In this document: in pieces, positions 3,356-56,568 of the stretch
Numbering within the stretch: position 1 is the stretch's first letter
How the letters are laid out: each line of letters opens with the position of its first letter
Source of the DNA: Owenia fusiformis
Taxonomy: Eukaryota; Annelida; Polychaeta; Sabellida; Oweniidae
Reading direction: 5' to 3'
DNA: 64,000 nucleotides
Assembly: GCA_903813345.2 (NCBI GenBank)
Contig: CAIIXF020000009.1
Location: 10,720,030-10,784,029 of the forward strand
The notes under the pieces: model-generated
The model's input: only the letters and a program-made list of their open reading frames with translations
What the model was told of the DNA's origin: nothing
The model's database searches: none
Program-made: the position numbers and the translations under genes

Positions 3356-5095
3356 AATAATCAAGAAAGCAAGCAAGGATGTGAGGAAGTAAACAAGCAA
3401 CGAAGTAAGTAATTGAGTTAGCAAGCAAGTAAAGAAGGGATGGAGGAAGTAAATCGAAGAAGTGAAGGTGGGAGTAATATAAGTAAGCAAGGAAGGAAAA
3501 AAAGGAAGGAAGGAGGGAAGGAAAGAAGCAATGAAGCAAGGAAGGAAGGAAGAAAGGAAGGAAGTGAGGAAGAAATTTGTGAAGGAAGCGAGGAAGCAAA
3601 GAAGGGGGAAAGAAGGGAGCGAGGAAGGAAAAAAGCAAGGACGGAAAGAGGGAAACGAGGAAAGAAAGAAGCGAGGAAGCAAGGTAGGAAGTGAGGAAGG
3701 AAAGATTCCAAGGAAGGAAGGACGCAAGGAAGCAAAGAAGGAAGGAAGGAAGGAAGCAAGGAAGCAAGAAAACGAGGAAGCGAGGAGGGAAGAAAGTGAG
3801 GAAGCAAGGAAGGAAGGAACTGAGGAAGAAAGAAAGGACGGAAGCGAGGGAACAAGGAAGGAACGATGCGAGGAAGGAAGGAAGGAACTGAGGAAGCAAG
3901 GAAGGGAACGAGGAAGAAAGGAAGCCAGGAAGCAAAGAAGGAAGGAAACTATGAATCAAGGAAGGAAGGAAGCAAGCAAAGACGCAAGAAAGGAAGGAAG
4001 GAAAAAAGCAAGGAAGGAAGTAAGTAAGGAAAGAAGGCGAGAAAGCAAGGAGGGAAGGAAGTAAGGAAGGAATGAAGCGACAAAAGAACAACGCGAGGAA
4101 AGAATGAAGGGAACGAGGAAGCAAGGAAGGAGGAAAGAAGGAAGTGAGGAAGGGAGGAAGCAAGGAATGAAGGAGGGAAGTGAGGAAGGAAGGAAGCGAG
4201 GAAGGAAGGAAGGAAGGAAAGAAGGAAGCGAGGAAGCCAGGAAGAAAGCAAGCGAGGAAGCATGGAAGGAAGGAATGAAGCAAGGAAGGAAGGAGGAAAG
4301 GAAGTGAGGAAAAAATTTATGAAGAAAGCGAGGAAACAAAGGAGGAAAGAAGGGAGCGAGGAAGGAAAAAAGCATGGAAGGAAAGATGCTAGGAAGGAAG
4401 GAAGCGAGGAAGGAAGGAAGCGAGGAAGCAAGGTAGGAAGGAAGCGAGGAAGGAAAGATGCGAGGACGGGAGGAAGCGAGGAAGCAAGGAAGGAAGGAAG
4501 CAAGAAAAGAAGGGGCGAGGAAGGAAGGAATGAAGCAAGGAGGGAAGGAAGGAAGTGATGAAAGAGAGAGGCGAGGAAGCAAGGAAGGAATGAAGCGAGG
4601 GAGGAAGGAAGCGAGGAAGCAAGGTGGGAAGCAAGCGAGGAAGGAAAGATGCGAGGAAGGAAGGAAGCAAAGAAGGAAGGAAGCAAGAAAAGAAGAGTCG
4701 GAGAAGAAAGGAAGGTAGGAAGCGAGGAAGGAAAGAAGCAAGGAAGGAAGGAAGCGAGGAAGGAAAGAAGCGAGGAAGCAAGGAAGGAAGGAAGCGAGGA
4801 AGCAAGGAGGGAAAGAAGCAAGGGAGGGAGGAAGCAAGGAAAGGAGGAAGCAAGGAAGGAAGGATGCGAGGAAGGAAGTAAGCGAGGAAGCAATGAAGGA
4901 AGGAAGCAAGGAAGGAACGAAGCGAGGAAGGAAGGATGCAAGGAAGCGAAGAAGGAAGGAAGTGAGGAAGCAAGGAAGGGAGGATGCAAGAAACGAAGGA
5001 AGGAAGCAAGGATGGAAGGAAGGAAGCGAGGAAGGAAGGATGCAAGAATGCGAGGAAGCAAGGAAGGAAGGAAGCGAGGAAGGAAGCGAGAAGGG
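3356..5095. repeat. GGAA/GAAG/GCGA tetranucleotide array (1.7 kb)
   Basis: About 1.7 kb built from GGAA, GAAG, GCGA and GCAA words with 4-bp periodicity and local higher-order blocks such as GGAAGCGAGGAAGGAAGGAA. All frames stay open for long stretches: K/R/E/G-rich on plus, F/L/S/P-rich on minus, the longest 370 residues. They are artefacts of the composition. The strong purine/pyrimidine strand asymmetry is notable. Confidence 0.9.
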
Positions 5096-21902: not shown

Positions 21903-24152
21903 TTAAAAATCAGTTTTTGGTCGTGTTTGCACCCATTTTGCTATGTTCGGGTTTTCAGCGACACATTTGTATATTGTCAAAAGTTTTGGGCTGTTGTCAT
22001 TTAAGATCTTCTCTACGTCTTGTCCGAAATCTGACAGGATGTCCATCAAGTTGAAGAGGCATATATCGGCCCATGTTATCTGTAACAAAAATAAGTCATA
22101 ATAGGTCTATTATAAAGTGCCGCACAAAGCAAAGGAAACACTTATATCTAGCCTCTGATCCTACGACAAACTGCTTTGATAACTGAAAAACACACTCAAC
22201 CTGGACATGGGTGAGTCTGTCATGATTATTTTGGACATTGAAATATAACTACTTCAAATCTACTCACTACTTCAAATCATACAATGTAGTAGATTGTATC
22301 ACCTACCTCTTTTCCAACAAGGAAGCTGCCCCCAGGATTGTTTGCCATAAAAGATTTCTCGACACTACCAAGAGCATTCTTTCCTTCTTTCCCAACGACA
22401 GCTCCGAGGGCGGCAGGCTGTAATTAAAGGGTGTATATGCTATATACAAGTGTACATGGTGTCCATAAAATCCCTTTACAATAACAATAAAAATTCTCCA
22501 ATTACCCTTGTAAATATACTTTATGAATACCATGTATATTCAACACGCTCCATAATGGACTTGTCTCCTTACGTTAAATCGTTGTGTGCGATGCTCTGGC
22601 TTTAAATTTGTTTCTCCGCTCGAATACTGTTGGCCTGACACTGTTCATACTTCATAAGTATCTGACTACAAGATCTTTAATTTATAAATGTGTTTCATAT
22701 ACTTAATTACCCATTTCTAAAACAGATCGTATCAATATGGAACAAGTAATATAAATGGACGAAAGTTCACGCATCATTTTACCACTTACTAGTTTGTCAG
22801 GACCGCCTGCACTGAAGATCGCTTTCATAGCTGCAGCCCCAAACTCATTCAATACTTCTACTATCATGTCTGCTTGGGCCTTCTCAACAACAGTTTTACC
22901 TGCAATACCTACAAAAAGAGCATCATCAACTACAATGTTAACTGCTTGCGTGTAATGAGTTTCATCAACTACAATGTTAACTGCTTGCGTGTAATGAGTT
23001 TCGGACAGAGTTGGACTTACATTGTCATTTGTGACAAATCGGAATCGAAACCTAAGTATTGATGATGATTCCATTTTTATCAAGACAATAACTAATAAAC
23101 AAAAGTATAGATGTCGTAAACCGCTACAAGATGAATTAATACATTTATATTTTGATATTTAGTTTAACAATTAAACTGTTAGGTTTGCCCAAGACTATCA
23201 AATACCTGTTTCGTTTGCAGCGAAGCGAGCAATTGTTAAACTTTCTGAAATTGTCACATTCCCAACTTGAAGCACCGGCAAATGGCCCATAGGGGTATCT
23301 GAAAACATGAAAAAGACTTTCTGAAATTGTCACATTTCTAACTTGAAGCACCGGCAAATGGCCCATACGGGTATCTGAAAACATGAAAAAGACTTTCTGA
23401 AATTGTCACATTTCCAACTTGAAGCACCGGCAAATGGCCCATAGGAGTATCTGAAAACATAAAAAAGCATTGTCATATCTGACAATTTTGAAAAGCTCAC
23501 AAAGGAATACGGAAGTAGACTAAGCCCAACTGTTTGAATATACATTTTGCATTTTCTAACAGCTATTGAATTCCTAATTGAAAGGCATAGTTATATATGG
23601 TCATGAGATGTGTCTACATCAAACTAAATTACCCAAGCCAAATAGAGAAATGTCTGTAGAATGCAAACCTGAGATAAATAAGGCATAAAAATAAAGAAAT
23701 TTAGAGTCTGGAAAAACTTTGGGCCCCTAAAATCAAAAATTAGGTCCACATTTTGAAAAATCAAGGCCCATTTTTTGATAATTAAGCCCAAAAAAGCCGA
23801 ATTATGCCCAAAAAGCCCATTTATTGAAGCCCTACAAAATGTTGGTGTCCTACCCACTCCCCGGATCTGCCACTAAAATACACATTCCTACCAAAAATTG
23901 TTACATAGAAATGTCTCATACTCTCATTATTAATTGAACAAACTTGTACAAGAATTATCATTCGACTTGAAAAGGTCACTCACTTGCCCATGATAATATT
24001 GTTTTATACTCACTTGGTTTCAATGCTTCCCAATCTTCTTTTCCCACTCTATAATCCTCGAAATTTATATTTTTCGAGTGGAAAATCAGGCGAATGAGCT
24101 CTGCCCTTCCTTTTCCATTAAAGTACGTGAGCTTATATGTTGGCTTAGACAT
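21903..24152 (-). CDS. Sigma-class glutathione S-transferase, five exons
   Basis: Exons (minus): 24152-24014, 23298-23206, 22908-22790, 22417-22307, 22079-21903; all junctions are GT-AG and phases agree, giving 212 residues. The N-terminal thioredoxin-like domain begins MSKPTYKLTYFNGKGRAELI, with the catalytic Tyr at residue 10. The cis-Pro segment HLPVLQ and the glutathione-binding Glu65-Ser66 (TISESLTIARFAA) follow. The C-terminal helical domain has QADMIVE, then TWADICLFNLMD, and ends KWVQTRPKTDF, as in sigma GSTs and prostaglandin D synthase-like relatives. It would conjugate glutathione in the cytosol; isomerase activity is possible. Exon 3 has two possible acceptors 9 bp apart; TTTTTGTAG at 22909-22910 gives the family GIAGKT junction. 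Exon 2 is preceded by extra copies of its own acceptor and first half. Confidence 0.93.
22923..23000. repeat. 39-bp tandem duplication in GST intron 2
   Basis: CATCAACTACAATGTTAACT through GTGTAATGAGTTT is present twice in direct tandem, ending about 14 bp from the exon 3 acceptor. It would fall in the branch-point and pyrimidine-tract zone of that intron. Confidence 0.85.
23231..23460. repeat. 76-bp tandem triplication of the GST exon 2 acceptor and 5' half
   Basis: Acceptors at 23299-23300, 23375-23376 and 23451-23452 are exactly 76 bp apart. Each copy contains the pyrimidine tract, TTTTCAG and the codons for TPMGHLPVLQ through TISES. Only the copy nearest the donor carries the second half of exon 2. 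As 76 is not a multiple of three, use of an outer acceptor without internal splicing shifts frame and reaches a stop soon after. Confidence 0.9.
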
Positions 24153-30756: not shown

Positions 30757-32877
30757 TCATGGCCGTATTGTAATGGTAGTCGTTGCAGCTGTCGAAGTTG
30801 GGCAGGGTTCAAAAGGGTCCTCACTTCCGTCTCCGCATGGAGGACAGGTGTTCTCTGGCCAGTTACAGAGTTGCCTGGGTTCGTCATACACGAGACCTAA
30901 TGAGAAAATTTGAAGTGCAAGTAATACGAGGCTAGGGTTGTCCCAGAGCTAAAGTTTCCATTCCGAAAGCTAACGAAAAACGAATGCTCCAGTCTGAGTG
31001 TCCCGCCACACTGCGGTTGCCATAGTAGCCATCATGACTTCACCATTTGCAATAAATTAAATGTACACTATAGATACGTATCGGCTACAACTGTAAAATG
31101 TAATTTTGGTGAATGATAACTTTGGTGTGCTTGATATTTTGAAAGCCCTACGTTGAATTTGTACGGATTGTACGATGTGCTTTGAATACGTACCTGCTGG
31201 ACAAAGATTGTTTGCCTGGAACTGCTCATTCAGACAATAATGATAGGACAAGCAAGCATCGTCATAGTTGGTATAGTAACCATCAGCCTTTCCTGTACAA
31301 TTCCGGTACACTCCGCAAGGGGGCGCCACATTTTCAGGACTGTAAAATATTTTCTGAATAAGTCGTCGTCCAAGTTTTTTTTGTAAAGAGGGTGCAGAAT
31401 CATCATTTCGTCAATGTAGCCTTGCCCAAGTCGGTCTCTTTTACTTATCTTAATTTCTATTGGTAATAATTCAAGATCAGACAAGTAAAAAATACCGACT
31501 TGGGCAAGGCTACCGTCAATGGTGTAAACGCTAATTATTCTAAAGAACGCTCGTATATACAAAGACACGATCGTACGTACTCGTCGCATCCACCGACCTC
31601 TACGTCAACAACCTGGCCTACTGGACATTGTACGGTTACATCAGTGCCACTCTGGCAATAAATATAGTATGTGCAGCCAGCCTCACATATTGTATTGTCG
31701 GGGTCAACTGCACAATTACACTGACTCAAGACACCTAAATGATAGAATTTTATCAGTTCAGGCCTTTTACACCCCAGTCACATTTGTCGTACGGCGGCCG
31801 TACGTCGACCGCAGATCAATTAAATCGGTGTATTTCTGCGGCGAGCGTAGGTAAACTGCGCTCGCCTTGCGGTCTCCGTACGGCGTATCATGTTTTTTAC
31901 AGGCCGCAGGGTCGCCGTAGAAATTGTAGAATATTGGTTCATTTCTGCGGTGCCCGTAGAAATGATAGACCGCATGGCGACCGTAGGAAATGTGATATTT
32001 CGCTAATTACATTTTTAGACTCGTCGATTTGCAAAAATGCTGTGTGAAATAGAGGGTTATGAATATGCAGGAAAAACAAGAGAATTAGCATATATTGTTG
32101 TGTGGCATACTGCTTTTACAATCTGAACAAGGCGTCTAGCTCTTTAGAAGATACGACATTTCAAGTAATTAGAGTTGATAGGAAAGCTAATATGGCACCA
32201 ACAATGGTGAAGACAGTGCTTATTTATTAGAAATTTTCGTCAAACACAATTTCATACAACATACAAAAAGAGACTCTACAGTTGATACCTTAAAATTTAT
32301 ATCATCGATAAAACTATAATTGGACAATTAAAAGACTGGTTTTATGATGTTACATTACATTTTTATAATGTTATGTTAAATGACTTTACGTTACGTTACA
32401 TTGCGTTACGTTTCATACGTTACGTTATGCTATGTTATGTTAATTATGCTAATATCAAAACGTACCATCTATTACGGGAATCATTTAAGACTTGAATTTA
32501 TAATTAATTTGATAAAAATGTTATGTATTTAGGTTAGACCCAATTGGATATAATTCAATGTAAACGTGTTCGTAAATTTTGTTTTTGTCTATTTGTATCT
32601 ATTTTACATGAAACGGATGTGAAAGTATCCTAACAATAAACATATTAACACAGGCATTGTATATTAAGTGATCAAATAAAATCAGGAAAGGTTGCTGTTA
32701 AAGCCATGATCCAAATACTCTTCTTTTACAAACAAATAACTAACCGACATTTAAAAAAGATTATATTGAAACTATAAAAGACAAGCTTATCATGTCAGAA
32801 GTATTTAACTGAATTAACTTACCTTCGCAAAATGATAATACGAATGCAAAGACCAACAAACTTTTTGACACTGACAT
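30757..32877 (-). CDS. Secreted CBM14 chitin-binding protein A, four exons
   Basis: Exons (minus): 32877-32823, 31734-31581, 31339-31194, 30896-30757; phases 1, 0-based remainder 2, and 1 agree at every GT-AG junction, 164 residues. Exon 1 is a signal peptide (MSVSKSLLVFAFVLSFCEG). Exon 2 encodes a Cys-rich domain, C-x1-C-x8-C-x3-C-x5-C-x9-C-x12-C. Exons 3 and 4 form a canonical peritrophin-A/CBM14 domain, C-x14-C-x5-C-x10-C-x12-C-x6-C, with aromatic YYTNYDD and SYHYC and the CP.GLVYD and CNWP signatures. The tail is short and Thr-rich (TSTAATTTIT). It is likely an extracellular chitin-binding protein of gut lining, cuticle, shell or defence; the site is unknown. It is a paralogue of genes B and C. 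Confidence 0.92.
31766..32008. mobile_element. GC-rich MITE in intron 1 of CBM14 gene A
   Basis: CACATTTGTCGTACGGCGGC at the left resembles the complement of the right end (CACATTTCCTACGGTCGCC). The interior is rich in CGTACGG, GCGGTC and CCGTAGAAAT words in both orientations and has much higher GC than its surroundings. No target duplication was fixed. Confidence 0.6.
32340..32460. repeat. TTACG/TTATG simple repeat
   Basis: Imperfect 5-bp repeat (GTTAC, GTTACGTTA, TTATG) over about 120 bp in intron 1 of gene A. Confidence 0.7.
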
Positions 32878-38927: not shown

Positions 38928-41900
38928 ATGGCACTTTTGACAATCATATCTGTTTTTGTGTTGATATGCGCAGTACCACAACGTGAGTCTAAATATGCCA
39001 ATTAGCTTTTTGGAATATAAAAACTTTAAATATCATATATTTGAATTCAGTGGTAGCATATATTAACAGTATTCACGGTTGAAAAATGTGTCTCATTTAC
39101 TAGATTTTGTAAAATCATACAGTATTAAGTTCTGTGTCCAAAAAAATTAATTTCTTTTTTTCTATTTCTTGTAGGTACGTTTTGCCAAGGGTGTTACTTG
39201 CCTATGAATATCGTGCTTTCTCTTCTAGACACTTTTGACCAATCAAGGCTATAACCACGGTGTTATAGCATGACGGTTACGTCAAGGCGATTTGCAAAAT
39301 TTTGCGGTAACGATAACAAAAAATCGCGGATGGGAGAGACAGCATGTCCTCTTTCTCGCCTGTAGGCAAGATTCACAGATAAGATTTCCTTTTCAACTAG
39401 TTCCATTCGGTGATGTATATATGAATGGTTATAAAGACCGGGTCAAATCTGCCAGGTGGTTTACTAGAAGCTTAATATAAGGTGTAAACTTACCGACTGA
39501 GATGCCCAAGTTCATATTTTTAGTCCATTCTCGTGATTTCTCAGTATATGTGCCTCAGGGCCACTCAAACTATTAACAGTAAGTAAACTGTGTATAAACA
39601 AGCCATGAAATGACAAATCCAGAACAGGAACGTGGTCATAGCGTAAATAATAAGGTTTCAAACGCAATGTCGTTAGACGACTACGTATGAATTCTATAGA
39701 CGGTAACGTATTGTATAAGATGTACATTAGATATTTAGCGGACGGTTACGTGCATGTACATCTTTCAAGTTAAAGCTGCTAGATCTGATAGCCTCTCTCC
39801 ATGTAATTGTTATAATGGGTAAGAAATGGAATATTGAATTGCTTATATTTGTTTTCAGGACTCGCAAGAGACGCTCTTGTTTGAGCCTCTATAGGGCAAG
39901 GAAAAAAATTGTGTCTTGCTTTATTTATGAAACCAATTTAAGTAAAAAAGATAGCAATGAAGAGGCAAAAGAAGAATTAGCATCAAGTACTGATGAATAT
40001 GACAAAATTAAACGGTTAGCGTAACCGTCAATCAATTTTTTGCGTAACCGCAAATTAAAAATACAATATTATGGCTTAGGTAGAACATATTAGGTGGTTT
40101 CCAATGCTCAATTGGCTTTTTATGATCGCATGTAGGTTACATCTATATACCACGAGGCCGTTAGGCAATGTAGACCATGCCCTAACGACAAAAATAAACA
40201 AATTACTAAATTTTGTGTAGTTTTGAATTTCAAGCTCAACAGTTTTTCGCTTATTTCATGTTATCCCAGGGCATCAATTTGCAAAGAATACGTTCAAAAT
40301 ATACATTACTAAATGCATCACCGAATGCGATGCCTACGAAAATCGTTCATCCTTTCATTGATACACAGTAGAAGAAAATAATGCACCAACCTTAGTTTTC
40401 TGTTCCATCGCGGCCATTTTATTGGATATATCAGTGATCGTAGTCGTCTAATCTCGTTTTCAGGGGTGTCGTAACCGTCATGCTATAACACCGTGATATC
40501 TGTGCTATAAATATTTTGCTTTCTCTTATAGGCACGTTTGGCCAAGATTGTAACTGCGTTCATAAATATTTTTTCTCTTACAGGCACGTTTAACCAAGGC
40601 TAACTGTGTCTACTGGTATTTTGCTTTCTCTTAAAGGCACGTTTGACCAAGGCTGTAACTGTGCCTATTGATATTGTGATTTTTCTTATAAGCACGTTTT
40701 GGCCAAGGCTGTAACTATACCTATTAATATTTTGCTTTCTCTAATAGGCGCGTTGGGTCAAGGCTGTAATTGTGCCTTTGATCCCGACGGCACCCTCTGT
40801 GAAGCAGCTTGCACGTACTACAGCTATTGTGAAAATTTCCAAGTCGTCACGGTACAATGCCAAGAGGGTGAAGTGGTGGATATTGAAGTAGGAGGTTGCA
40901 ACTCGTGAGTTTAGAATGACAGATAGTCCTCATCTCACCTCTTAAGATGTAGTAGATAGGGGGGGGGGGGGGGGGGGGGTAGACTTGAAGCTAATAAAGG
41001 TGTGGTTCAATTACAATTATATAGAGTGGCGTACGGTTCTCGAGATTTCGTTGGAACAGACGTATTTTACCTATGGTGACGTCATTGACAAACACTTCCA
41101 TCTTTACAACTTGATAAAAATCTAGTGTCCTTTCTTGCCCTGGTCTCTCGTAGTAAACCGTAACATTGTACTAGCGGTATCCGGCTGGTGTTTTCAGTCT
41201 AAAGTCTATAAAGGGCCAGGAATTACCACATTTCTAATTGGGTCGAAAAGGGAGCGATAAGAAACACTCGAGTAAGCTAATATTGGGATCAGATTTAATT
41301 TTGCATACGTACTTATAGGACGGCGAATGTGGCGCCCCCTTGTGGCGTGTGGCGGGACTGTTCGAATAAAGCCGATGGTTACTATGCCAACGAAGATGAC
41401 AACTGTTTTTCCTATCACTATTGCTTAAATGGCCAATTCATGAGTAACAATCTTTGTCCGACTGGTAGGTTTAAAGATCTGAAACTCTAAATAAAATACC
41501 TAGGGGGATTGGTATCGATAGGGCGAACTTTTTGAACCCACGTTTCTCTTAAACCAGTCATCAAAAGATTCTGAAAATTTTACACATCGTCAGTTTAATT
41601 TTCGCATCAAATTGTTGCCAATCAGTCAACATTACATAAAGAACCGTGTTTATTACAGAATGTTTTCAATAATTGGTTTAAAAGAAAAACATTGTTGAAT
41701 TCAGTTCACCATATCGATACCAATCCTTTAGCGGACCTTGAAAACGTTCAAATGGCCCTCACCAGCTCATTTTTTATAGTTGTACAAGCTTTATTTTATT
41801 TAGATTCAATAACTTACAGCAAAATCAAAAGAAAATCTAACAGAAATAAACATTGCAAGGTTTCGTTGGTTTATTTATATAATTTTTTTTATTTTTTTTC

Positions 41901-42687
41901 ATTGAAAATCGCTGTTATGTACAGGGTGTACCAGAAATGCAACCTACCTAACAATGCTTATTTAAACAAAAGAGCACTACAAATCGTTTTCGGCATTATT
42001 AAAGTTGGTTCATCACTAGTGCGTGACCCGTTTGACTACCTCTCTGTACGACAAAATCCGGTATTTTACATGTTCTGTCTTTGGGTTCTTGTTGTTTTTG
42101 GTGGCGAGTAAGAGGGGGAGAAACCCCAGGGTTCAAAGATGACATACGCTTATAATGTAAATCTGTATTGAGATGACATCGTCGCTGATTGGATTAGCTA
42201 GTCGATCGTTGATAGGTTTAAAACTAGGTCAATTTGAAAACTTTGAAAACAAGATGGAGGGAAGTATAAATATACGTACTTCCGGGAAAGGAGGTGCGCG
42301 AAGGAAATCGTATGTCATCAATTGAATCATAGGGTTTTCCCACCTCTTGTGGCGAGTATAAAATTGTTATTTTACAAAGAAAGAGAACAATATACTTGCC
42401 CTGAAGTCTGCAACATAACTTTTATAATACTTAGTCGCTTTGGGGGGGGGGGGGTCATTTGGACCCCCTGCAATTTTTAATACTTGTCTGATTTCATTAT
42501 TGTTGTAAAACCTATTCAATTACCCCTACGCAAAGTTTCATTAGGATTCTGATGATTCAAATGTCAACGTATGAATGTGTTTTTAGATTTGGTGTTCGAC
42601 AACCCGAGGCAGCTGTGCAACTGGCCAGGGAATGTGTGTCCCCCATGTGGGGATGGCAGTGACGATCCATTTGCACCGTGCAACTGA
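38928..42687 (+). CDS. Secreted CBM14 chitin-binding protein B, four exons
   Basis: Exons: 38928-38982, 40748-40904, 41319-41464, 42587-42687; all GT-AG and in phase, 152 residues. Exon 1 is a signal peptide (MALLTIISVFVLICAVPQ) of exactly 55 bp, as in genes A and C. Exon 2 gives the first Cys-rich domain (QGCNCAFDPDGTLCEAACT, then YYSYC). Exons 3 and 4 give the CBM14 domain with KADGYYANEDDNC, SYHYC, CNWPGNVCPPCG. It ends early (DPFAPCN) without the Thr-rich tail of A and C. Intron 1 holds six decoy copies of the exon 2 acceptor and a 1.2-kb DNA transposon; intron 3 holds two MITEs. It is extracellular by its signal peptide. Confidence 0.9.
39160..40770 (+). repeat. Tandem array of exon 2 splice acceptors (gene B)
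   Basis: A unit of about 54 bp, TTTGCTTTCTCTTATAG followed by GCACGTTTGACCAAGGCTGT, is repeated seven times. Putative exon starts: 39175, 39229, 40532, 40584, 40637, 40693 and 40748 (the functional one). Right-hand spacings are 52, 53, 56 and 55 bp. Most copies keep a pyrimidine tract and an AG and would encode T-F-x-Q-G-C-N-C-like residues, then hit a stop because the rest of the exon is absent. A transposon at 39256-40495 has split the array after copy two. Confidence 0.9.
39256..40495. mobile_element. 1.24-kb DNA transposon, CACGGTG termini, Transib-like
   Basis: A perfect 26-bp inverted repeat beginning CACGGTGTTATAGCATGACG lies at both ends. Flanks ATAAC (left) and ATATC (right) match at four of five bases, a likely 5-bp target duplication. 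CACGGTG ends and 5-bp duplications are Transib traits. Possible coding remnants: a plus-strand exon-like stretch after TTTGTTTTCAG near 39858, basic then acidic, ending at 40024, and a minus-strand ATG near 40420. No transposase core was recognised. It is inserted in intron 1 of gene B. Confidence 0.75.
41506..41725. mobile_element. Foldback MITE, GGTATCGATA family
   Basis: GATTGGTATCGATAGGGCGA at the left and, inverted, GATTGGTATCGATATGGTGA at the right; imperfect arms of about 80 bp make the whole 220-bp element self-complementary. It is homologous to the larger copy at 12680-13339 and sits in intron 3 of gene B. Confidence 0.75.
42107..42350. mobile_element. TIR repeat in intron 3 of gene B
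   Basis: The left end (GAGTAAGAGGGGGAGAAACC, then GATGACATACG) pairs imperfectly with the right end (GTATGTCATC, then GGGTTTTCCCACCTCTTGTGG). The start resembles the G-tract region at 6155-6205. No target duplication was resolved. Confidence 0.5.
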
Positions 42688-42801: not shown

Positions 42802-44950
42802 ACCTTTTGATACGACATTAGAAAAACGATGATATATTGGCTAAATTGATGATGTCATTGGTTGTAGCTAGGTAGGAATCTAACCATGCAAAAACAAGAT
42901 TAACTCATTGCTAATATCAAAAAATACAACCTATGACATCATCAAGCTAGCTAATATATCAAAAGGTGACAGGATTCATTGGAAAGATCGATTCCAAAGA
43001 ATATCAACATTTTATTAAGTTGAGTGTGCTTCCACATGGCGTGCTGTTGCTTTAGATCAGGTATTATGGGCCAAAGTACAATAGTACAACAGTATATTGA
43101 TCTGATCACATTTTGATACATTAGAAAAACTATATTGACTAAATCTATGATGTCATTGGTTGTAGGTAGAAATCTGACCATGCAAAACAAGATTAATTCA
43201 TTGCTAATTTTAAAAATGACAACCTATGACATCATCAAGCTAGCCAATATATCAAAAGGTGACAGGATTCATTGGAAAGATCGATTCCAAAGAATATCAA
43301 CATTTTATTTAGTTGAGTGTGCTTCCACATGGCGTGCTGTTGCTTTAGATCAGGTATTATGGGCCATAGTACAATAGTACAACAGTATATTGATCTGATC
43401 ACACTTTGATACATTAGAAAAACTATATTGACTAAATTGATGATGTCATTGGTTGTAGGTAGAAATCTGACCATGCAAAACAAGATTAATTCATTGCTAA
43501 TTTTAAAAATGACAACCTATGACATCATCAAGCTAGCCAATATATCAAAAGGTGACAGGATTCATTGGAAAGATCGATTCCAAAGAATATCAACATTTTA
43601 TTTAGTTGAGTGTGCTTCCACATGGCGTGCTGTTGCTTTAGATCAGGTATTATGGGCCATAGTACAATAGTACAACAGTATATTGATCTGATCACACTTT
43701 GATACATTAGAAAAACTATATTGACTAAATTGATGATGTCATTGGTTGTAGCATGGGCTTTCAACTAGAAGGGTAGGCAACTTCCCATATTTCATACATA
43801 AACATTGCCATAGGTTTTCAAAATTGGAGAATGTGCACATTCCAAGAAAATCTTATTTTGTACTTTTTATTGATGATTAAGAGAAATAACTCAAAAACAA
43901 AAACATGATCTTCTACATACATCTTGATAATTTAATAAAAATTGGAATTCATCATAATTATGACAATACTGAAAGTGAACATTCTCCCACAAATTATGTT
44001 TTTATTGGAATGTGTTCTTGAATAATTACCCACAATGCAATACTCAAAGAGAACATCTTGATAACTCTTATTCTTATTGGTCTCTTTTGTTTACTTTTAT
44101 ATGATATTGAATATATTTTATGCTTAAATCATATTAAAAATTGATTTTTATTCAAAATAATACTAAAACATATACATTTATCTAATACTTTTTGAAATAT
44201 TGCCATAAAAGGGAAGCATGTCATTGCTCATTTTGAAGGTCTAATGTTATTACATAGAGTTGCATACCCTTCTAGTTGAAAGCCCATGGTTGTAGGTAGA
44301 AATCTGACCATGCAAAACAAGATTAATTCATTGCTAATTTTAAAAATGACAACCTATGACATCATCAAGCTAGCCAATATATCAAAAGGTGACAGGATTC
44401 ATTGGAAAGATCGATTCCAAAGAATATCAACATTTTATTTAGTTGAGTGTGCTTCCACATGGCGTGCTGTTGCTTTAGATCAGGTATTATGGGCCATAGT
44501 ACAATAGTACAACAGTATATTGATCTGATCACACTTTGATACATTAGAAAAACTATATTGACTAAATTGATGATGTCATTGGTTGTAGGTAGAAATCTGA
44601 CCATGCAAAACAAGATTAATTCATTGCTAATTTTAAAAATGACAACCTATGACATCATCAAGCTAGCCAATATATCAAAAGGTGACAGGATTCATTGGAA
44701 AGATCGATTCCAAAGAATATCAACATTTTATTTAGTTGAGTGTGCTTCCACATGGCGTGCTGTTGCTTTAGATCAGGTATTATGGGCCATAGTACAATAG
44801 TACAACAGTATATTGATCTGATCACACTTTGATACATTAGAAAAACTATATTGACTAAATTGATGATGTCATTGGTTGTAGGTAGAAATCTGACCATGCA
44901 AAAACAAGATTAACTCATTGCTAATTTCAAAAGTCACAATCAAAAGGTAT
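42802..44950. repeat. 293-bp satellite array built on a MITE-like unit
   Basis: The landmark GTAGGTAGAAATCTGACC recurs at 43163, 43456, 44293, 44586 and 44879, with a diverged first copy at 42870, at exactly 293-bp steps apart from one interruption. Each unit contains an internal inverted repeat (GATGATGTCATTGGTTGTA and its complement near TACAACCTATGACATCATC, with (C)TTTTGATA at the outer edge), suggesting descent from a MITE plus spacer. Inner units are nearly identical; the outer ones are diverged. Identical short open frames on both strands are by-products. It lies downstream of CBM14 gene B. Confidence 0.9.
43752..44288. mobile_element. 537-bp DNA element, CATGGGC termini, 7-bp TSD
   Basis: Inverted repeats match at 29 of 30 terminal bases, beginning CATGGGCTTTCAACTAGAAG. 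GTTGTAG flanks both sides (43745-43751 and 44289-44295). The insertion interrupts the 293-bp satellite, and the offset of the next unit (544 bp) equals 537 plus the 7-bp duplication, so both boundaries are confirmed by the array itself. No coding capacity. Two near-interior-less relatives occur at 16261-16292 and 52861-52887. Confidence 0.92.
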
Positions 44951-46784: not shown

Positions 46785-49700
46785 CTATGGAAGTCCAGTG
46801 GTGGGTTGTACAGTTGTAGTTGTTGTTGTAGTAGTAGGGCAGGGCTCGTACACATCACCAGTGCCATCTCCACACGGAGGGCAGACATTATATTGCCAGT
46901 TACACACCCCTCTCGGGTCATCGAACACAAGTCCTACAAGGATAATAAATGCATTGCAGCTATCATAGGTAATGTGGAATAATTAAAGGCCCACTTTGCG
47001 TATTTTCAACGTTTTTGGGCAAAATAAAGACTTACATTTCAATTCTATAGTATTCCAATGTATTGATATCTTTCATTTAACACCAACAACAGCTCCAACG
47101 GACCACATCAAAGCTTACAACAAAGTATCAAAATATATTTTTTATCAATGTCATTGAAAGATGGCAAAGTTGTTTGTATTACATGATACATTCATTTTCA
47201 GTGTCGCCATCTTTCAAATCAACAGTAATTTAAAACATGCACTTTGTGCATGCACTTCTAATGATCTCTTAACTTCAAATGCTTTTTTCTATGTGAGTTA
47301 TGTTTTTTTGGTTCAATATTAAAGCAAAGCAAACTTTGTGTCATATTTGAGCGTGTGTGTGAGTAACATGTTTCAATGGTTATTTTTTTGAATTTTTTCT
47401 TCTTAATTAAGTATAGTGGGCCTAAGTCTGGAGAATACATATGTATGATTAATGATTAATGACTAATGTATAATATATAAATCTGTATTTTAAGATATCC
47501 GTGTAAAGGTTGATCCTAATATTTCCTGAATGATTTTACTATTTTGTTGAAGATCGACATGATGCCTTATCGTTCATTTTATGTAAGTAATAGAAGGCCA
47601 GATTGAGGACAAAGTTTTCAAAAGTAGATAATGCAACAAAATGTAAATGCTCCAATGCTTCATTTACGTCAAAACCCCTTCTTCGTTTGAATAAACTTGC
47701 ATGTCCGTTGGATTAGGGAAAAGTTGTTAGTGAAAAATTACAGACCATGAGGGCAAATCGAGAGAAATGATCCACATTGTATACAGGGGATGGAAACCGC
47801 CAAAAACAAAAAATGGCAAATGGCCGGTCGTACTCCACGAAAATACTTTACACGTTTCCAATGATTCACAAACTTACCTGTTGGACACAGATTGTTTGCT
47901 TGAAATTGTCCATCTACACAGTAGTGGTATGAGAGGCAATTGTCATATTCGTTGGCATAGTAGCCGTCCTCTTTTCCGGTACAGTCGTGGTATACACCGC
48001 ACGGTGGCTCCACCTTTTCAGGCCTGAAATTGTAGTTCACTGGTGATCCACTCGATTACGCTGGTTAACGAAACGGTTCGTTTCGGTAGCAAAATGTCGG
48101 AACGTCGAAGGTACGATTTTTCTTTTTTCCTTATTTCACGCGTTGTAGGCGGAATCCCTACGACGTTTTTACACATAAACATGCATCAGCATCATATGTT
48201 TTAGAAAATGTACATGTTTGCGAAAAAATAGCTCAGAAGACAACAGAGTCGTCGATTCAATTCCTCACTTAAGTTACATAAACGGTTTGGGTTAAAAGTG
48301 CAGATCTTAACTGTTTTCGAAAAACCGTTTATGTAACTTAAGTGAGGAATTAAATCGACGATACTGTTGTCTTCTGAACTATTTGTTCGCAAATACGTAC
48401 ATTTTCTAAAACATATGATGCTGAGGCACGTTTGTGTTAAAAATGTCGTGGGAATTCTGCCTACAACGTGTGAAATAAGGAAAAAAGAAAAATCGTACCT
48501 TCGACGTTCCAACATTTTGTTACCAAAACGAACCGTTTCGGTAACCAGCGTAATCGAGTGGATCATCAGTGATCAAGCAGCCCGACCGGTCCCATTTAAT
48601 TAATGCTTTATTTATCTGGCGATTTTTAAAATATTTGATAAATGTATGACACGCCGGCCAAATGGCGTTCACGGTGTTCCAGATAAAATTACTTCTAGCC
48701 AAGAATTGGCTAAAGACTCGAGTAACGTGCAGTAGTTATTTCAATTATTCCCTTACGTTTCTTAGTTTCCTTACTTCTTATTTATCAGATACCAATAACA
48801 AGGTTGGTGGTCCATGATGCGACTCAAATTCACAATTACACAACTCTGTGTAAAATTACACAAGTCTGTGTAAAAAAGGTAGTGATGATTCTTCATTGTC
48901 TCGTGAAATCAAGGAAAGATAAAATATGTCGAAATCGTTTGCGCCATTTTGTTACGAAAATGGATCCGTTTTCGTAACGGGCTTTGAGTTCCTCCATAGT
49001 GAAATTGCTAGGGCTCTGATTTTAACTCCAAACAATTCCATGTATTCCTCAAGTTAAAAAATATATATGCTTGCTCAAGTGCCAATGGGTAAACTCAAAC
49101 ATGGTTTCAGAACACAGCGAGAAAAAGAAAACATCTAAGAGTACACCAGTCATAAAACCCCAACTATCCTTTTAAAACCATAATCCATCGTGAAAAGAAA
49201 CGGTCTAATACCCCTCCCCCACACGTAGATACATACACGTCACAAGTCCCTGTCTCTACATCAAGAACCTGACCGGAAGGACACTGCAGGGTCTCCTCTG
49301 TACCGTTAAAACAGTAGATATAGTACGTGCACCCTGATTCACATAATGTATTGTCGGGATCTACTGCACAATCACATTGATCACACCAGGCTCCTAGAAC
49401 GCAGATGCAAGTTCGAAATTCAGTTTTTAACCAATCGATTTGATGCTGTCATGCATGAATAACTAGGTGGCAATAGTGTTTTGGTCTAGTTTCCATTAAA
49501 GAGTATGCTACAACCGTCAAAGATCACTTGATCTCTTGATTGAACGAATATTTCTAATAGACTAGATGCGAGTAGAAATAATCTTGATTTACGTCATTAA
49601 TTATTCAAAATTCGGTCAAAGTGATGTCATATTTGAAATCTGCATGTAAAAGTACATCTAGAAATATGATTTCGAAAATTGTCTATCAACTTTGAAAATT

Positions 49701-50955
49701 TAATTTTTTTTGAAAATGTGACTTCTTGTTCGGGTTGATTCCCCATAGACCCCATATTACAAAATCACAAAAAGTGAAATATCTTTTCTTGTATTGGACA
49801 GATAACATTTTCTTTTACTGGAAATATTTTAATTTGCAGAACAATTAGATACATAAGGGTTATATGAAAATTGAACCACGCAAATAGATGTAATTTAAGT
49901 TAAAGGGAACTTTCTACTATACCCGCCATGCTATCTGACCCGAACGAGCCACCTGGTGGTGAATCTGGTAACTACCTACTCGCATCTGCGTTATTGGAAA
50001 ATCAGTGACATACAGCAACAGTAGATGACCTTCTACAAATAGTGATACACTCGATTACTCTGGTTACCCGGTAACAAAATGTCGGAACCTCGGAGGTACG
50101 ATTTTTCTTTTTTCCTTATTTCACGCGTTGTGGGGAAATTTTTCACGACATTTTTATCACAAACATGTGTCAGTATCATATGTTTAAGAAAATGTACATG
50201 TTTGCGAACAAATAGTTCAGAAGACAATAGAATCGTCAATTTAATACCTCACTTAAGTTACGTAAACAGAATCGGTTAGAAATGCAAATCTTAACCGTTT
50301 TTCCGTTTACGTAACTTAAGTGAGGTGTTAAATCGACGATTCTGTGGTCGTCTGAACTATTTCTTCGCAAACATGTACATTTTCTTACACATATGATACT
50401 GACACATGTTTGTTATAAAAATGTCATGGGGATTTTGCAATACGTGGAATAAGGATATGGGAAAAATCGTACCTTTGAGGTTCCGACATTTTGTAAACGA
50501 AACGGTTCAGCGTAATCGAGTGGATCACCAGTGTACCCGAAGCAGGAAGGAACAGAGTTTTTTTTATGTCTAGACCCCTACGTTCGGAGGATGAATTGTA
50601 GAAGTCAATACGAATGAGAAGAAAGCACTTAATTATTGAAACCAATATTACTTATGAAAAATTGTACAAATGAAATTTTATATCATTTATTAAAAAAGAA
50701 TGTCGATAAAAAGTATATTCTCTATAAAACAAAATATGTATTCGATTTTATTCCGATTTTTCCAGAATAGGAACAAGTACCCGCATGGCGGTAGTTATGC
50801 GAGGCAACTGCTTGCAATGGGCCTCGCCAAAATTTACAAAAATATACAAATAGTCTCGCCTTTTTAAATTCGCCTGGCCGAAGCGCGTTCTATTACTTAC
50901 CTATGAAAAGAGAAGATGCAATTGCAAATATCGTGAAAAAGTTAGAACTTGCCAT
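46785..50955 (-). CDS. Secreted CBM14 chitin-binding protein C, four exons
   Basis: Exons (minus): 50955-50901, 49393-49237, 48023-47878, 46933-46785; all GT-AG with the same phases as A and B, 168 residues. Exon 1 is a signal peptide (MASSNFFTIFAIASSLFIG). Exon 2 encodes the first Cys-rich domain (CDQCDCAVDPDNTLCESGC, then YYIYC). Exons 3 and 4 encode the CBM14 domain (KEDGYYANEYDNC, SYHYC, QANNLCPTGLVFDD, CNWQYNVCPPCG). The tail contains a run of eight Thr and ends TTGLP, suggesting a short O-glycosylated stem. Two foldback elements of the same family occupy introns 1 and 2; the one in intron 2 begins only about 16 bp from the exon 3 acceptor. It is presumably extracellular and chitin-binding. 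Confidence 0.92.
48039..48570. mobile_element. 530-bp foldback element, copy 1 (intron 2 of gene C)
   Basis: Two arms of about 255 bp are near-perfect inverted copies, starting GATCCACTCGATTACGCTGG and meeting near 48300. Arm landmarks are CGGAA(C)GTCGAAGGTACGAT and ACTTAAGTGAGGAATT. A single-stranded transcript would fold into one long hairpin. Copy 2 is at 50041-50534. Confidence 0.88.
50041..50534. mobile_element. Foldback element, copy 2 (intron 1 of gene C)
   Basis: Same family as 48039-48570: ends (C)ACTCGATTAC(T/G)CTGGTTAC and the complement CGTAATCGAGTGGATCAC, internal GGTACGATTTTTC and CTTAAGTGAGG. The arms are about 240 bp and slightly more diverged. No coding capacity. Confidence 0.85.
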
Positions 50956-54789: not shown

Positions 54790-56568
54790 TCACATAGGAA
54801 CGGGACCCTGCTTACATGTAAGTATATGTTTGAAAGCTTTCCTGTAATCCTTGCTCCTAGTAAGATAGACAATGACATTTGTGAATGAATTGCAAACAAG
54901 TAAAGTTCCAGTAATGTAGTTTACATTTGCATTAATAGAATTCCCGGGTTGGATTGAATAAAGGAATAAACAAACAAAAAACGGAACATAGCAAATGACA
55001 AAAGATATCAGTATGAAACTTATAAGCTTAGCAACTCTTGACATACGACGTGACCATTGATATTGAAGCCTGTTTTGATGTACGTCATTATTTTGCAAAT
55101 CACTCTGAATCTGATGTGATCTGATGCGTTCCGTAGTTGAATTGGAACATCCATGAGTTGAATCGGGCAATTGAAGATTCTGACCGTTGGATGCGTTATT
55201 TGAACTGAAACATCTAGGAGTTGGATCGCGCAGTCGAAGATTCCGACCGTGGAATTCGTTATTTGAGCTGGAACGTCCAGGAGTTGAATCGGGTAATCCT
55301 GGATTCTGATCGTCGAATTCGTAATTTGAACTGGAACATCCAGGAGTTGGATCGCGTAGTCGAAGATTCCGACCGTGGAATTCGTTATTTGAGCTGGAAC
55401 GTCCAGGAGTTGAATCGGGTAATCCTGGATTCTGATCGTCGAATTCGTAATTTGAACTGGAACATCCAGGAGTTGGATCGCGTAGTCGAATATTCCGACC
55501 GTGGAATTCGTTATTTGAGCTGGAACGTCCAGGAGTTGAATCGGGTAATCCTGGATTCTGATCGTCGAATTCGTAATTTGAACTGGAACATCCAGGAGTT
55601 GGATCGGGCAGTCGAGGATTCTGACCGTCGAACTCGTTATTTGAACTTGAACATCCAGGAGTTGGACCGAGCAATGGTGGATTCTTGCCGTTGAATTCGC
55701 TAGTTGAATTGGAATACCCAATATTTGGATCAGGCGATTGGAGAGTTTGACGGCAGAATCCAGAAGCGCTCTTCTCTAAGGTCTTTGGATTGTCAGTCTT
55801 CAAATTTTGGTCAATATTGAAAGGTGATACTCTAATATGTCTTATGTTTGTTCTAAAGTACCTTTTAGAATTTTGTGGTACTACACCATGTTCTTTAAGA
55901 TGTGCCACGTGTTTGTGAAGATTCCAGAATGTTAGACATTGTAGGATGAGGAGTACTATCAAGTGTAGAAACATGATGATACATACCCCTATCAAGTGAT
56001 TTTCATGGATAAGGCCATTGCCCAAATGGCAAGCTTTGTCTATACGCTTGTTTTTATGAAACAAAGTAAAGCTAATGCAGTACACTAGCCATAGAGCTAC
56101 TGTCACTACGATGAGAGCAAAAGCAGTTTTCCTACTAAATGCCCCATTTATACATTTTCGCTTTGTTGCTAGAAACATTTCAATCCATAGCAGTAGAACT
56201 CCTGACATGGTTACTCCTGCTGATGAGTTTACAAAAACGTTAATGATGATACATGGCATTGTCTTGCTTAATGTTCCAGATAGTTCTAAGATTCCTCTCA
56301 GGGCTAATAATGCTCCAAATATACTGTCATTCATAGCTAAGTGACCACGAAATATATTTGAAACTGTCTGCAATTTTTTATAGCGCTTAATTGACGCGAC
56401 GACTAAAAGATTCACAAAAAATATTATAACTGCTATTGCGATCTGCAGAGTTGGTGCTAATAAATTTCTGTTTCCTGTCATTTCACTTGCTCCCTGCATT
56501 CGAGTGACATTTGTACATTTGTCATCACTGCTGAGAATGAGATTACTAAAAAGTGTGCAGTTAGCCAT
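54790..56568 (-). CDS. Class A-like orphan GPCR with a repeat-expanded third loop
   Basis: A single exon encodes 592 residues. Seven TM segments can be placed: TM1 near 40-60 with the conserved Asn (FFVNLLVV), TM2 with HLAMNDSIF, TM3 with the disulfide Cys (MPCIIIN), TM4 and TM5, TM6 with CYVP (the CWxP position) and TM7 ending NVIVY (degenerate NPxxY). The DRY position reads IEMF, so the usual ionic-lock Arg is missing. The N-terminus has glycosylation sites (NCT, NVT). About 280 residues separate TM5 and TM6; some 190 of these are nine 21-residue repeats, consensus SSSN(N/Y)EFD.(Q/R)NP.LPD.TPG. The ligand is unknown; the fold is closest to aminergic/adenosine-like orphan receptors by general form only. 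It is flanked by a TATA-like box upstream. Confidence 0.87.
   Translation of the reverse strand: MANCTLFSNLILSSDDKCTNVTRMQGASEMTGNRNLLAPTLQIAIAVIIFFVNLLVVASIKRYKKLQTVSNIFRGHLAMNDSIFGALLALRGILELSGTLSKTMPCIIINVFVNSSAGVTMSGVLLLWIEMFLATKRKCINGAFSRKTAFALIVVTVALWLVYCISFTLFHKNKRIDKACHLGNGLIHENHLIGVCIIMFLHLIVLLILQCLTFWNLHKHVAHLKEHGVVPQNSKRYFRTNIRHIRVSPFNIDQNLKTDNPKTLEKSASGFCRQTLQSPDPNIGYSNSTSEFNGKNPPLLGPTPGCSSSNNEFDGQNPRLPDPTPGCSSSNYEFDDQNPGLPDSTPGRSSSNNEFHGRNIRLRDPTPGCSSSNYEFDDQNPGLPDSTPGRSSSNNEFHGRNLRLRDPTPGCSSSNYEFDDQNPGLPDSTPGRSSSNNEFHGRNLRLRDPTPRCFSSNNASNGQNLQLPDSTHGCSNSTTERIRSHQIQSDLQNNDVHQNRLQYQWSRRMSRVAKLISFILISFVICYVPFFVCLFLYSIQPGNSINANVNYITGTLLVCNSFTNVIVYLTRSKDYRKAFKHILTCKQGPVPM
55145..55715 (-). 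repeat. 63-bp coding minisatellite in GPCR loop 3
   Basis: Nine units of 63 bp lie in the coding frame. The central six alternate as three nearly identical 126-bp dimers (EFDDQNPGLPDSTPGR then EFHGRN(L/I)RLRDPTPGC). Because the unit is a multiple of three and lacks stops, a second minus-strand frame (55721-55020) and a plus-strand frame (55221-55694) are also open. Units at the edges are more diverged than those in the middle, as in a growing array. Confidence 0.92.

Follow-up and report, generated by a model that had tools for sequence, protein, structure and literature searches.

The window analyzed here (the whole stretch of DNA, 64,000 nucleotides) contains a cluster of three CBM14 genes, with gene B on the plus strand and paralogs A and C both on the minus strand. 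Gene B consists of four plus-strand exons that are open throughout and yield a 152-aa protein. Exon 1 (38928-38982, 55 nt) encodes a predicted signal-peptide-like sequence, MALLTIISVFVLICAVPQ, and ends at the phase-1 donor AAC/GTGAGT (here and below, a slash marks a splice junction); exon 2 (40748-40904, 157 nt including the start contributed by copy 7 of the array described below; donor CTC/GTGAGT) is homologous to exon 2 of both paralogs; exon 3 (41319-41464) corresponds to CBM14; and exon 4 (42587-42687) runs to the stop codon. Paralog A (30757-32877; exons 32823-32877, 31581-31734, 31194-31339, and 30757-30896) and paralog C (46785-50955; exons 50901-50955, 49237-49393, 47878-48023, and 46785-46933) have in common with gene B this four-exon plan with a 55-nt first exon. 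The Pfam CBM_14 profile matched gene B with 48.1 bits (E = 1.3e-12), gene C with 64.8 bits, and gene A with 61 bits (curated cut-off, 22.1 bits). Comparison of gene B with paralog A gave pN 0.21 and pS 0.81, and with paralog C, pN 0.28 and pS 0.79, computed on a version of gene B whose exon 2 ended with one extra residue; only these two quantities are given, as dS was infinite, making dN/dS ratios meaningless, and pS is near saturation, such that the values are no gauge of how far gene B has been under purifying selection since the array originated. A search of IMG/VR with the gene B protein, a single-protein query that captures close relatives only, returned eight pattern matches and no relatives. 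The G+C content of the window is 0.29-0.44 in 2-kb steps and about 35% overall, below the roughly 41% of Branchiostoma.

Elsewhere in the window, a 63-bp tandem repeat (55137-55714, minus strand, 9.2 copies) lies within a 592-aa open reading frame (54790-56568) that encodes a putative seven-transmembrane receptor and is overlapped by long open reading frames, one in another frame on each strand. Long open frames, probably spurious, are also found in several frames of a 1.6-kb AAGGAAGG array at 3481-5086.

A multiplied intron 1/exon 2 boundary in gene B

The boundary between intron 1 and exon 2 of gene B is present as seven head-to-tail copies. The unit comprises the last ~25 bases of the intron, with a branch-like sequence, a pyrimidine tract and the AG, and the first ~30 bases of the exon. 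Copy 1 (39149-39203), at the left edge, has its acceptor at 39175 (tttcttgtag/GTACGT), with the top-scoring tract and an AG/GT dual motif. Copy 2 (acceptor 39229) is cut by a transposon into a left part (39204-39255), which ends with the probable target-site copy ATAAC, and a remainder (40496-40531) with an exon-like end that leads into the tract of copy 3. Copies 3 (40532-40583; acceptor 40532, TAG/GCACGT), 4 (40584-40636; acceptor 40584, CAG/GCACGT), and 5 (40637-40692; acceptor 40637, AAG/GCACGT) are each delimited here by the next AG, and copy 6 (40693-40747; acceptor 40693, AAG/CACG) extends to the AG of copy 7 and has lost the consensus AG, in place of which an AG lies one base further on. 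Copy 7 starts at 40748, where the acceptor is contiguous with the rest of exon 2.

All seven AG acceptors listed in the preliminary description are in place, and its proposal that a single 3' splice site was copied repeatedly, to give seven copies, is borne out by several analyses. With the transposon removed, the copies are spaced by 54, 58, 52, 53, 56, and 55 bases; TRF independently identified a 55-bp array at 40500-40777 (5.1 copies, 76% matches). A 21-base core covering the tract, the AG and the exon start occurs six times with at most three mismatches, a threshold that leaves copy 1 undetected, whereas 100 shuffles contained 0.00 on average. The mean local alignment score of the 21 copy pairs is 46.2, against 14.0 in dinucleotide shuffles (n = 300; SD 2.4, maximum 28). 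The weakest member is copy 1, three of whose six pairs (scores of 24, 26, and 27) fall below the shuffled maximum of 28; this copy is 56-66% identical to the rest, compared to 75-86% pairwise identity among copies 2 to 7. Its mismatches are concentrated on the intron side (12 of 25 intron columns vs 4 of 28 exon columns; Fisher P = 0.015), and copy 1 is probably the edge of the array, with a pyrimidine tract unlike that of the other copies. A FastTree tree of copy order, built from 60 columns, had supports of 0.18-0.86 and was not used.

No such array was detected in intron 1 of paralogs A and C, where TRF reported no array of the 50-bp type and BLASTN with the gene B array gave a single weak match to each gene (E = 0.015 and 0.18), covering 24 bases where exon 2 begins.

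The transposon that splits copy 2 is a 1240-bp DNA element (39256-40495, plus strand) with 29-bp terminal inverted repeats (39256-39284 and 40467-40495) that are 97% complementary, and it accounts for the 1.3-kb gap that separates copy 2 from copy 3. It starts with CACGGTG and is flanked by ATAAC (39251-39255) and ATATC (40496-40500), which differ by one mismatch and probably represent a 5-bp target duplication. We take the CAC..TG heptamer and the 5-bp duplication to resemble ends of the Transib/RAG type. No transposase was recognized in the element, whose longest open frame found (97 aa) had no Pfam match at E 0.1, and no further copies of the element were found within the 64-kb window. When the flanks are rejoined, they read GGCTATAACTGTGC, which fits the array unit GGCTGTAACTGTGC; the array therefore predates the insertion. 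By coordinates, the transposon lengthened intron 1 of gene B from about 520 nt to 1765 nt, and exons starting at copy 1 or copy 2 would span 1730 and 1676 nt, respectively, a lengthening that may have helped to silence these two copies.

Other elements with inverted ends are present in the window. One at 43752-44290, with ends of the form GGGCTTTCAACTAGAAGGGTA..., interrupts a 293-bp satellite and has (G)GTTGTAG on both flanks, which looks like a 7-8-bp target duplication. Two related palindromic elements with ACTCGATTACGCTGG-type ends lie within paralog C, one in intron 2 (48035-48570) and the other in intron 1 (about 50050-50560).

Reading frame and acceptor strength of the copies

Copy 7 alone keeps the frame and reads on into exon 2, in agreement with the earlier observation that only the last copy is joined to the body of the exon, and because of this junction, gene B is still able to make protein. 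Reading from each of copies 1 to 6 runs into a stop within the array, 177-1650 nt before the exon 2 donor. The upstream acceptors had been described as giving TF-type residues followed by a stop: the stop is found in all six, and the TF-type start in five (RTFCQG, HTFDQ, RTFGQD, RTFNQG, and RTFDQG), the exception being copy 6, in which the one-base shift yields PRFGQG. Messages with such early stops are expected to be decayed.

Acceptors were scored with a rough weight matrix. On this scale, copies 1 to 7 score 9.3, 5.7, 7.5, 3.7, 5.0, -2.5, and 5.2, such that copies 1, 2, and 3 outscore copy 7, and copy 5 nearly equals it. Twelve other modeled acceptors were scored, three of them in a second array described below; the nine not belonging to an array have scores between -7.4 and 3.5. 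Only 0.9% of the 6387 AGs in the window reach a score of 5. Thus, by this rough measure, most decoys look usable as acceptors.

The preliminary description held further that the copies keep splice-like features rather than decaying evenly, and this was not upheld. When the observed number of substitutions was scattered at random over the unit, a simulation that has low power given the few copies, the mean score of copies 2 to 6 was 4.74, compared to 4.99 simulated (P = 0.59), and one AG was lost in these copies, compared to 1.10 expected. With copy 1 included, the mean was higher than simulated (5.49 vs 4.04), but not significantly (P = 0.19). In this test, gaps were filled with the consensus, so that copy 4 scored 9.6 there vs 3.7 as it stands, and copy 6 scored -4.1 vs -2.5. 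Within the low power of the test, decoys 2 to 6 decay as random mutation of the consensus predicts.

Similar arrays in the window and in other genomes

A second boundary array (23206-23467, minus strand) is located in a gene for a glutathione S-transferase (GST), where three 76-bp copies (23240-23467) occupy the acceptor of exon 2, with acceptors at 23450, 23374, and 23298. Exon 1 of this gene lies at 24014-24152 and exon 2 proper at 23206-23298, both on the minus strand. The partial protein matched GST_N (2.1e-6) and prostaglandin D synthases in the PDB (1.1e-26) and is of the sigma type; the PDB search listed 41 sequences, all under names of the GST, prostaglandin D synthase or S-crystallin type. 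The copies are 94.7-96.1% identical, with acceptor scores of 4.3 to 4.4 for the three (same rough matrix). Only the last copy (23298) keeps the frame; the first (23450) meets a stop, and the middle one (23374) shifts the frame with no stop inside the exon. Judging from copy identity (95-96% vs 75-86%), the GST and gene B arrays are of different age. In the next intron of the GST gene, there is a perfect 39-bp tandem duplication (22923-23002, minus strand); its end lies 14 bases short of 22908, where the following exon starts, and it does not include the AG of that exon.

To assess the association of tandem arrays with splice junctions, 43 TRF rows were merged by hand into 30 arrays, of which 13 with a period of at least 30 were kept, and these were compared with 22 modeled junctions. 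Two of the 13 arrays hold a modeled junction (2 of 11 acceptors and 0 of 11 donors), and random placement gave at least two in about 42% of trials. Two junction arrays are therefore no more than expected by chance, and no junction-targeting mechanism is claimed.

Minisatellites that multiply splice sites are familiar from other systems. Canestro 2002 is reportedly the founding paper on the amphioxus arrays known as mirages. The human gene 6-16/G1P3 (IFI6) is said to contain a minisatellite with multiple splice donor sites, and it likewise multiplies a splice site, but a donor rather than an acceptor. The amphioxus globin gene BflGb6 is described as carrying tandem copies in which an intron 3' end is joined to the 5' portion of exon 2, and the name mirages is taken from the earlier Adh3 cases (PMC3087553). 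BflGb6 units are 150-160 bp long, with copies 81-100% identical, and Adh3 units are 10-72 bp; the Adh3 mirage shows haplotype length differences and somatic instability, and the Adh3 data together with RT-PCR suggest that regular splicing is undisturbed by mirages (PMC3087553). PGBD5 was added and troponin C cited as further cases (PMC3902484), and the hosts named in the available text of these two papers are all cephalochordate. In the literature searched, we found no multi-copy mirages beyond amphioxus.

The gene B array has the structure by which mirages are recognized: the tandem unit crosses an exon-intron boundary, one authentic copy is contiguous with the exon while the others are duplicates, and the unit length (52-58 bp in gene B and 76 bp in the GST gene) falls within the 10-160 bp range. 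As in the amphioxus cases (Adh3, BflGb6/BflGb9, troponin C, and PGBD5), the repeated units cross an intron/exon boundary, and BflGb6 is of the same 3' type. The gene B copies differ from these in being more diverged (75-86%, with the edge copy at 56-66%), in being split by a transposon, and in belonging to a CBM14 gene. By structure, and as part of the interpretation favored below, the gene B array is thus quite probably a boundary-spanning minisatellite of the mirage kind; this kind of boundary repeat has already been described in lancelets, and the gene B case, though genuine and unusual, represents no new type.

Two other systems bear a partial resemblance. In potato RdRp, an intron was gained when a segment straddling the intron 1/exon 2 boundary was duplicated in tandem, documented by 106 RNA-seq junction reads (PMC4974935). 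There, too, the branch site, tract, AG, and exon start were duplicated, but potato has two copies and a new spliced intron, whereas gene B has seven copies and only weak internal donors. Dual-specific AGGT splice sites have been documented and are enriched in tandem repeat genes (PMC10809524). The tandem dual-specific sites of UBC likewise place a series of potential splice sites within tandem repeats, but the UBC units are in-frame coding units that can be spliced out as whole monomers, whereas those of gene B break the frame and only copy 1 carries AG/GT.

Origin of the array and competing explanations

We consider it likely that the array arose by tandem duplication spanning the boundary and is mostly a by-product of this process, with copy 7 serving as the productive acceptor. 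Under this scenario, gene B would have acquired head-to-tail duplicates of the boundary segment, with an origin after the split from paralogs A and C as the simplest timing, the array would have grown to seven copies, and the transposon would have landed later in copy 2. The preliminary description had already suggested repeated duplication at this boundary, an inference that appears to be right. The donor and internal enhancers of exon 2 would let it be recognized as one unit, so that the nearest acceptor, that of copy 7, would be favored; splicing to copies 1 to 6 would shift the frame and introduce early stops, and the resulting messages would probably be degraded; and the array as such would have little or no selected function. 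The by-product interpretation is favored because the decoys decay like random mutation, no array of this kind was found in paralogs A and C, the transposon-free site fits the unit consensus, all four exons of gene B are open and the gene has its CBM_14 match and pN values below pS relative to both paralogs, the GST gene in the same window has a like structure, and there is a precedent in amphioxus (PMC3087553). We counted against it that three decoys outscore copy 7 with the rough matrix and that the occurrence of two arrays is at chance level.

Published observations bear on the choice of acceptor in both directions. In a survey of how alternative splice sites are used, the sites nearest to each other across the exon are preferred with large flanking introns (exon definition), but of two competing 3' sites, the upstream one is preferred overall, a preference that is described as reduced with long introns and, in the part of the paper available, not as reversed (PMC9225289). 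Only 192 nt separate the exon 1 donor from the acceptor of copy 1. Given this distance and the upstream preference, copy 1 could be used frequently, or splicing could leak to it.

That upstream acceptors are used in some tissues, such that copy number tunes output through regulated unproductive splicing, appears unlikely: although all six decoys lead to a stop upstream of the exon 2 donor and five of the six score at least 3.7, above the nine acceptors outside arrays (rough matrix), the copies show no sign of kept splice features whether copy 1 is left out or included, the AG of copy 6 is shifted, copy 5 has AAG, and neither paralog A nor paralog C was found to carry such an array. We are equally skeptical of a splicing rheostat in which strong acceptors would compete, copy 1 would act either through its recursive AG/GT or as an intron-defined default, and copy number and the transposon would set the share of splicing that reaches copy 7; if this were true, changes in allele length would change the output of a chitin-binding protein. 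Still more doubtful is recursive splicing, whereby copy 1 would function as a zero-length exon whose recreated donor splices to copy 7, rendering the strongest decoy harmless. The dual motif of copy 1 scores 9.3 as a 3' splice site and, before any joining, 3.8 as a 5' splice site; two exons of paralog A have GTACGT as their inferred donor, and the joined donor (0.8) is close to the inferred donors of exon 2 in paralogs A (0.9) and C (0.2); the dual-specific AGGT sites discussed above offer a precedent (PMC10809524). However, the joined donor falls far short of the 3.4 scored by the original donor of exon 1, a single transition from the GCACGT of the unit creates the motif, and the motif is present in only one of the seven copies, leaving copies 2 to 6 as decoys.

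The same high degree of doubt applies to nascent exons, namely, 18-nt in-frame microexons formed by copies 3, 5, and 6 ahead of copy 7, each adding six residues, e.g., RTFGQD, as a step in intron or exon gain. The distance from the acceptor to GTAACT is indeed 18 nt in these three copies, the remaining intron to copy 7 would be 198 nt from copy 3 and 93 nt from copy 5 (from coordinates), and intron gain in potato RdRp (PMC4974935) and a similar model proposed for the globin mirages (PMC3087553) provide precedents. Nevertheless, the GTAACT donors have scores of only -2.2, -1.5, and -1.5, all lower than those of the seven donors of genes A, B, and C (0.2 to 7.7, gene B exon 2 excluded), and from copy 6 the remaining intron would be only 37 nt. 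Least probable of all, to an extreme degree, is misassembly of one boundary into false copies: tandem arrays are hard to assemble, and a globin mirage was seemingly aberrantly assembled in a draft genome (PMC3087553), but copies 2 to 7 differ from one another by 14-25% and have private indels, whereas artefactual copies would be near identical, and copy 2 is split by a transposon with a probable target duplication.

Gene B amounts to a natural competition test, in which seven related 3' splice sites share one intron and only the last is useful. The locus could show which factor governs the choice of acceptor: proximity, exon definition, or tract strength. If the host is not a lancelet, multi-copy boundary arrays would extend beyond the group of the reported cases, as these are represented in the available text of the two mirage reports (PMC3087553, PMC3902484).
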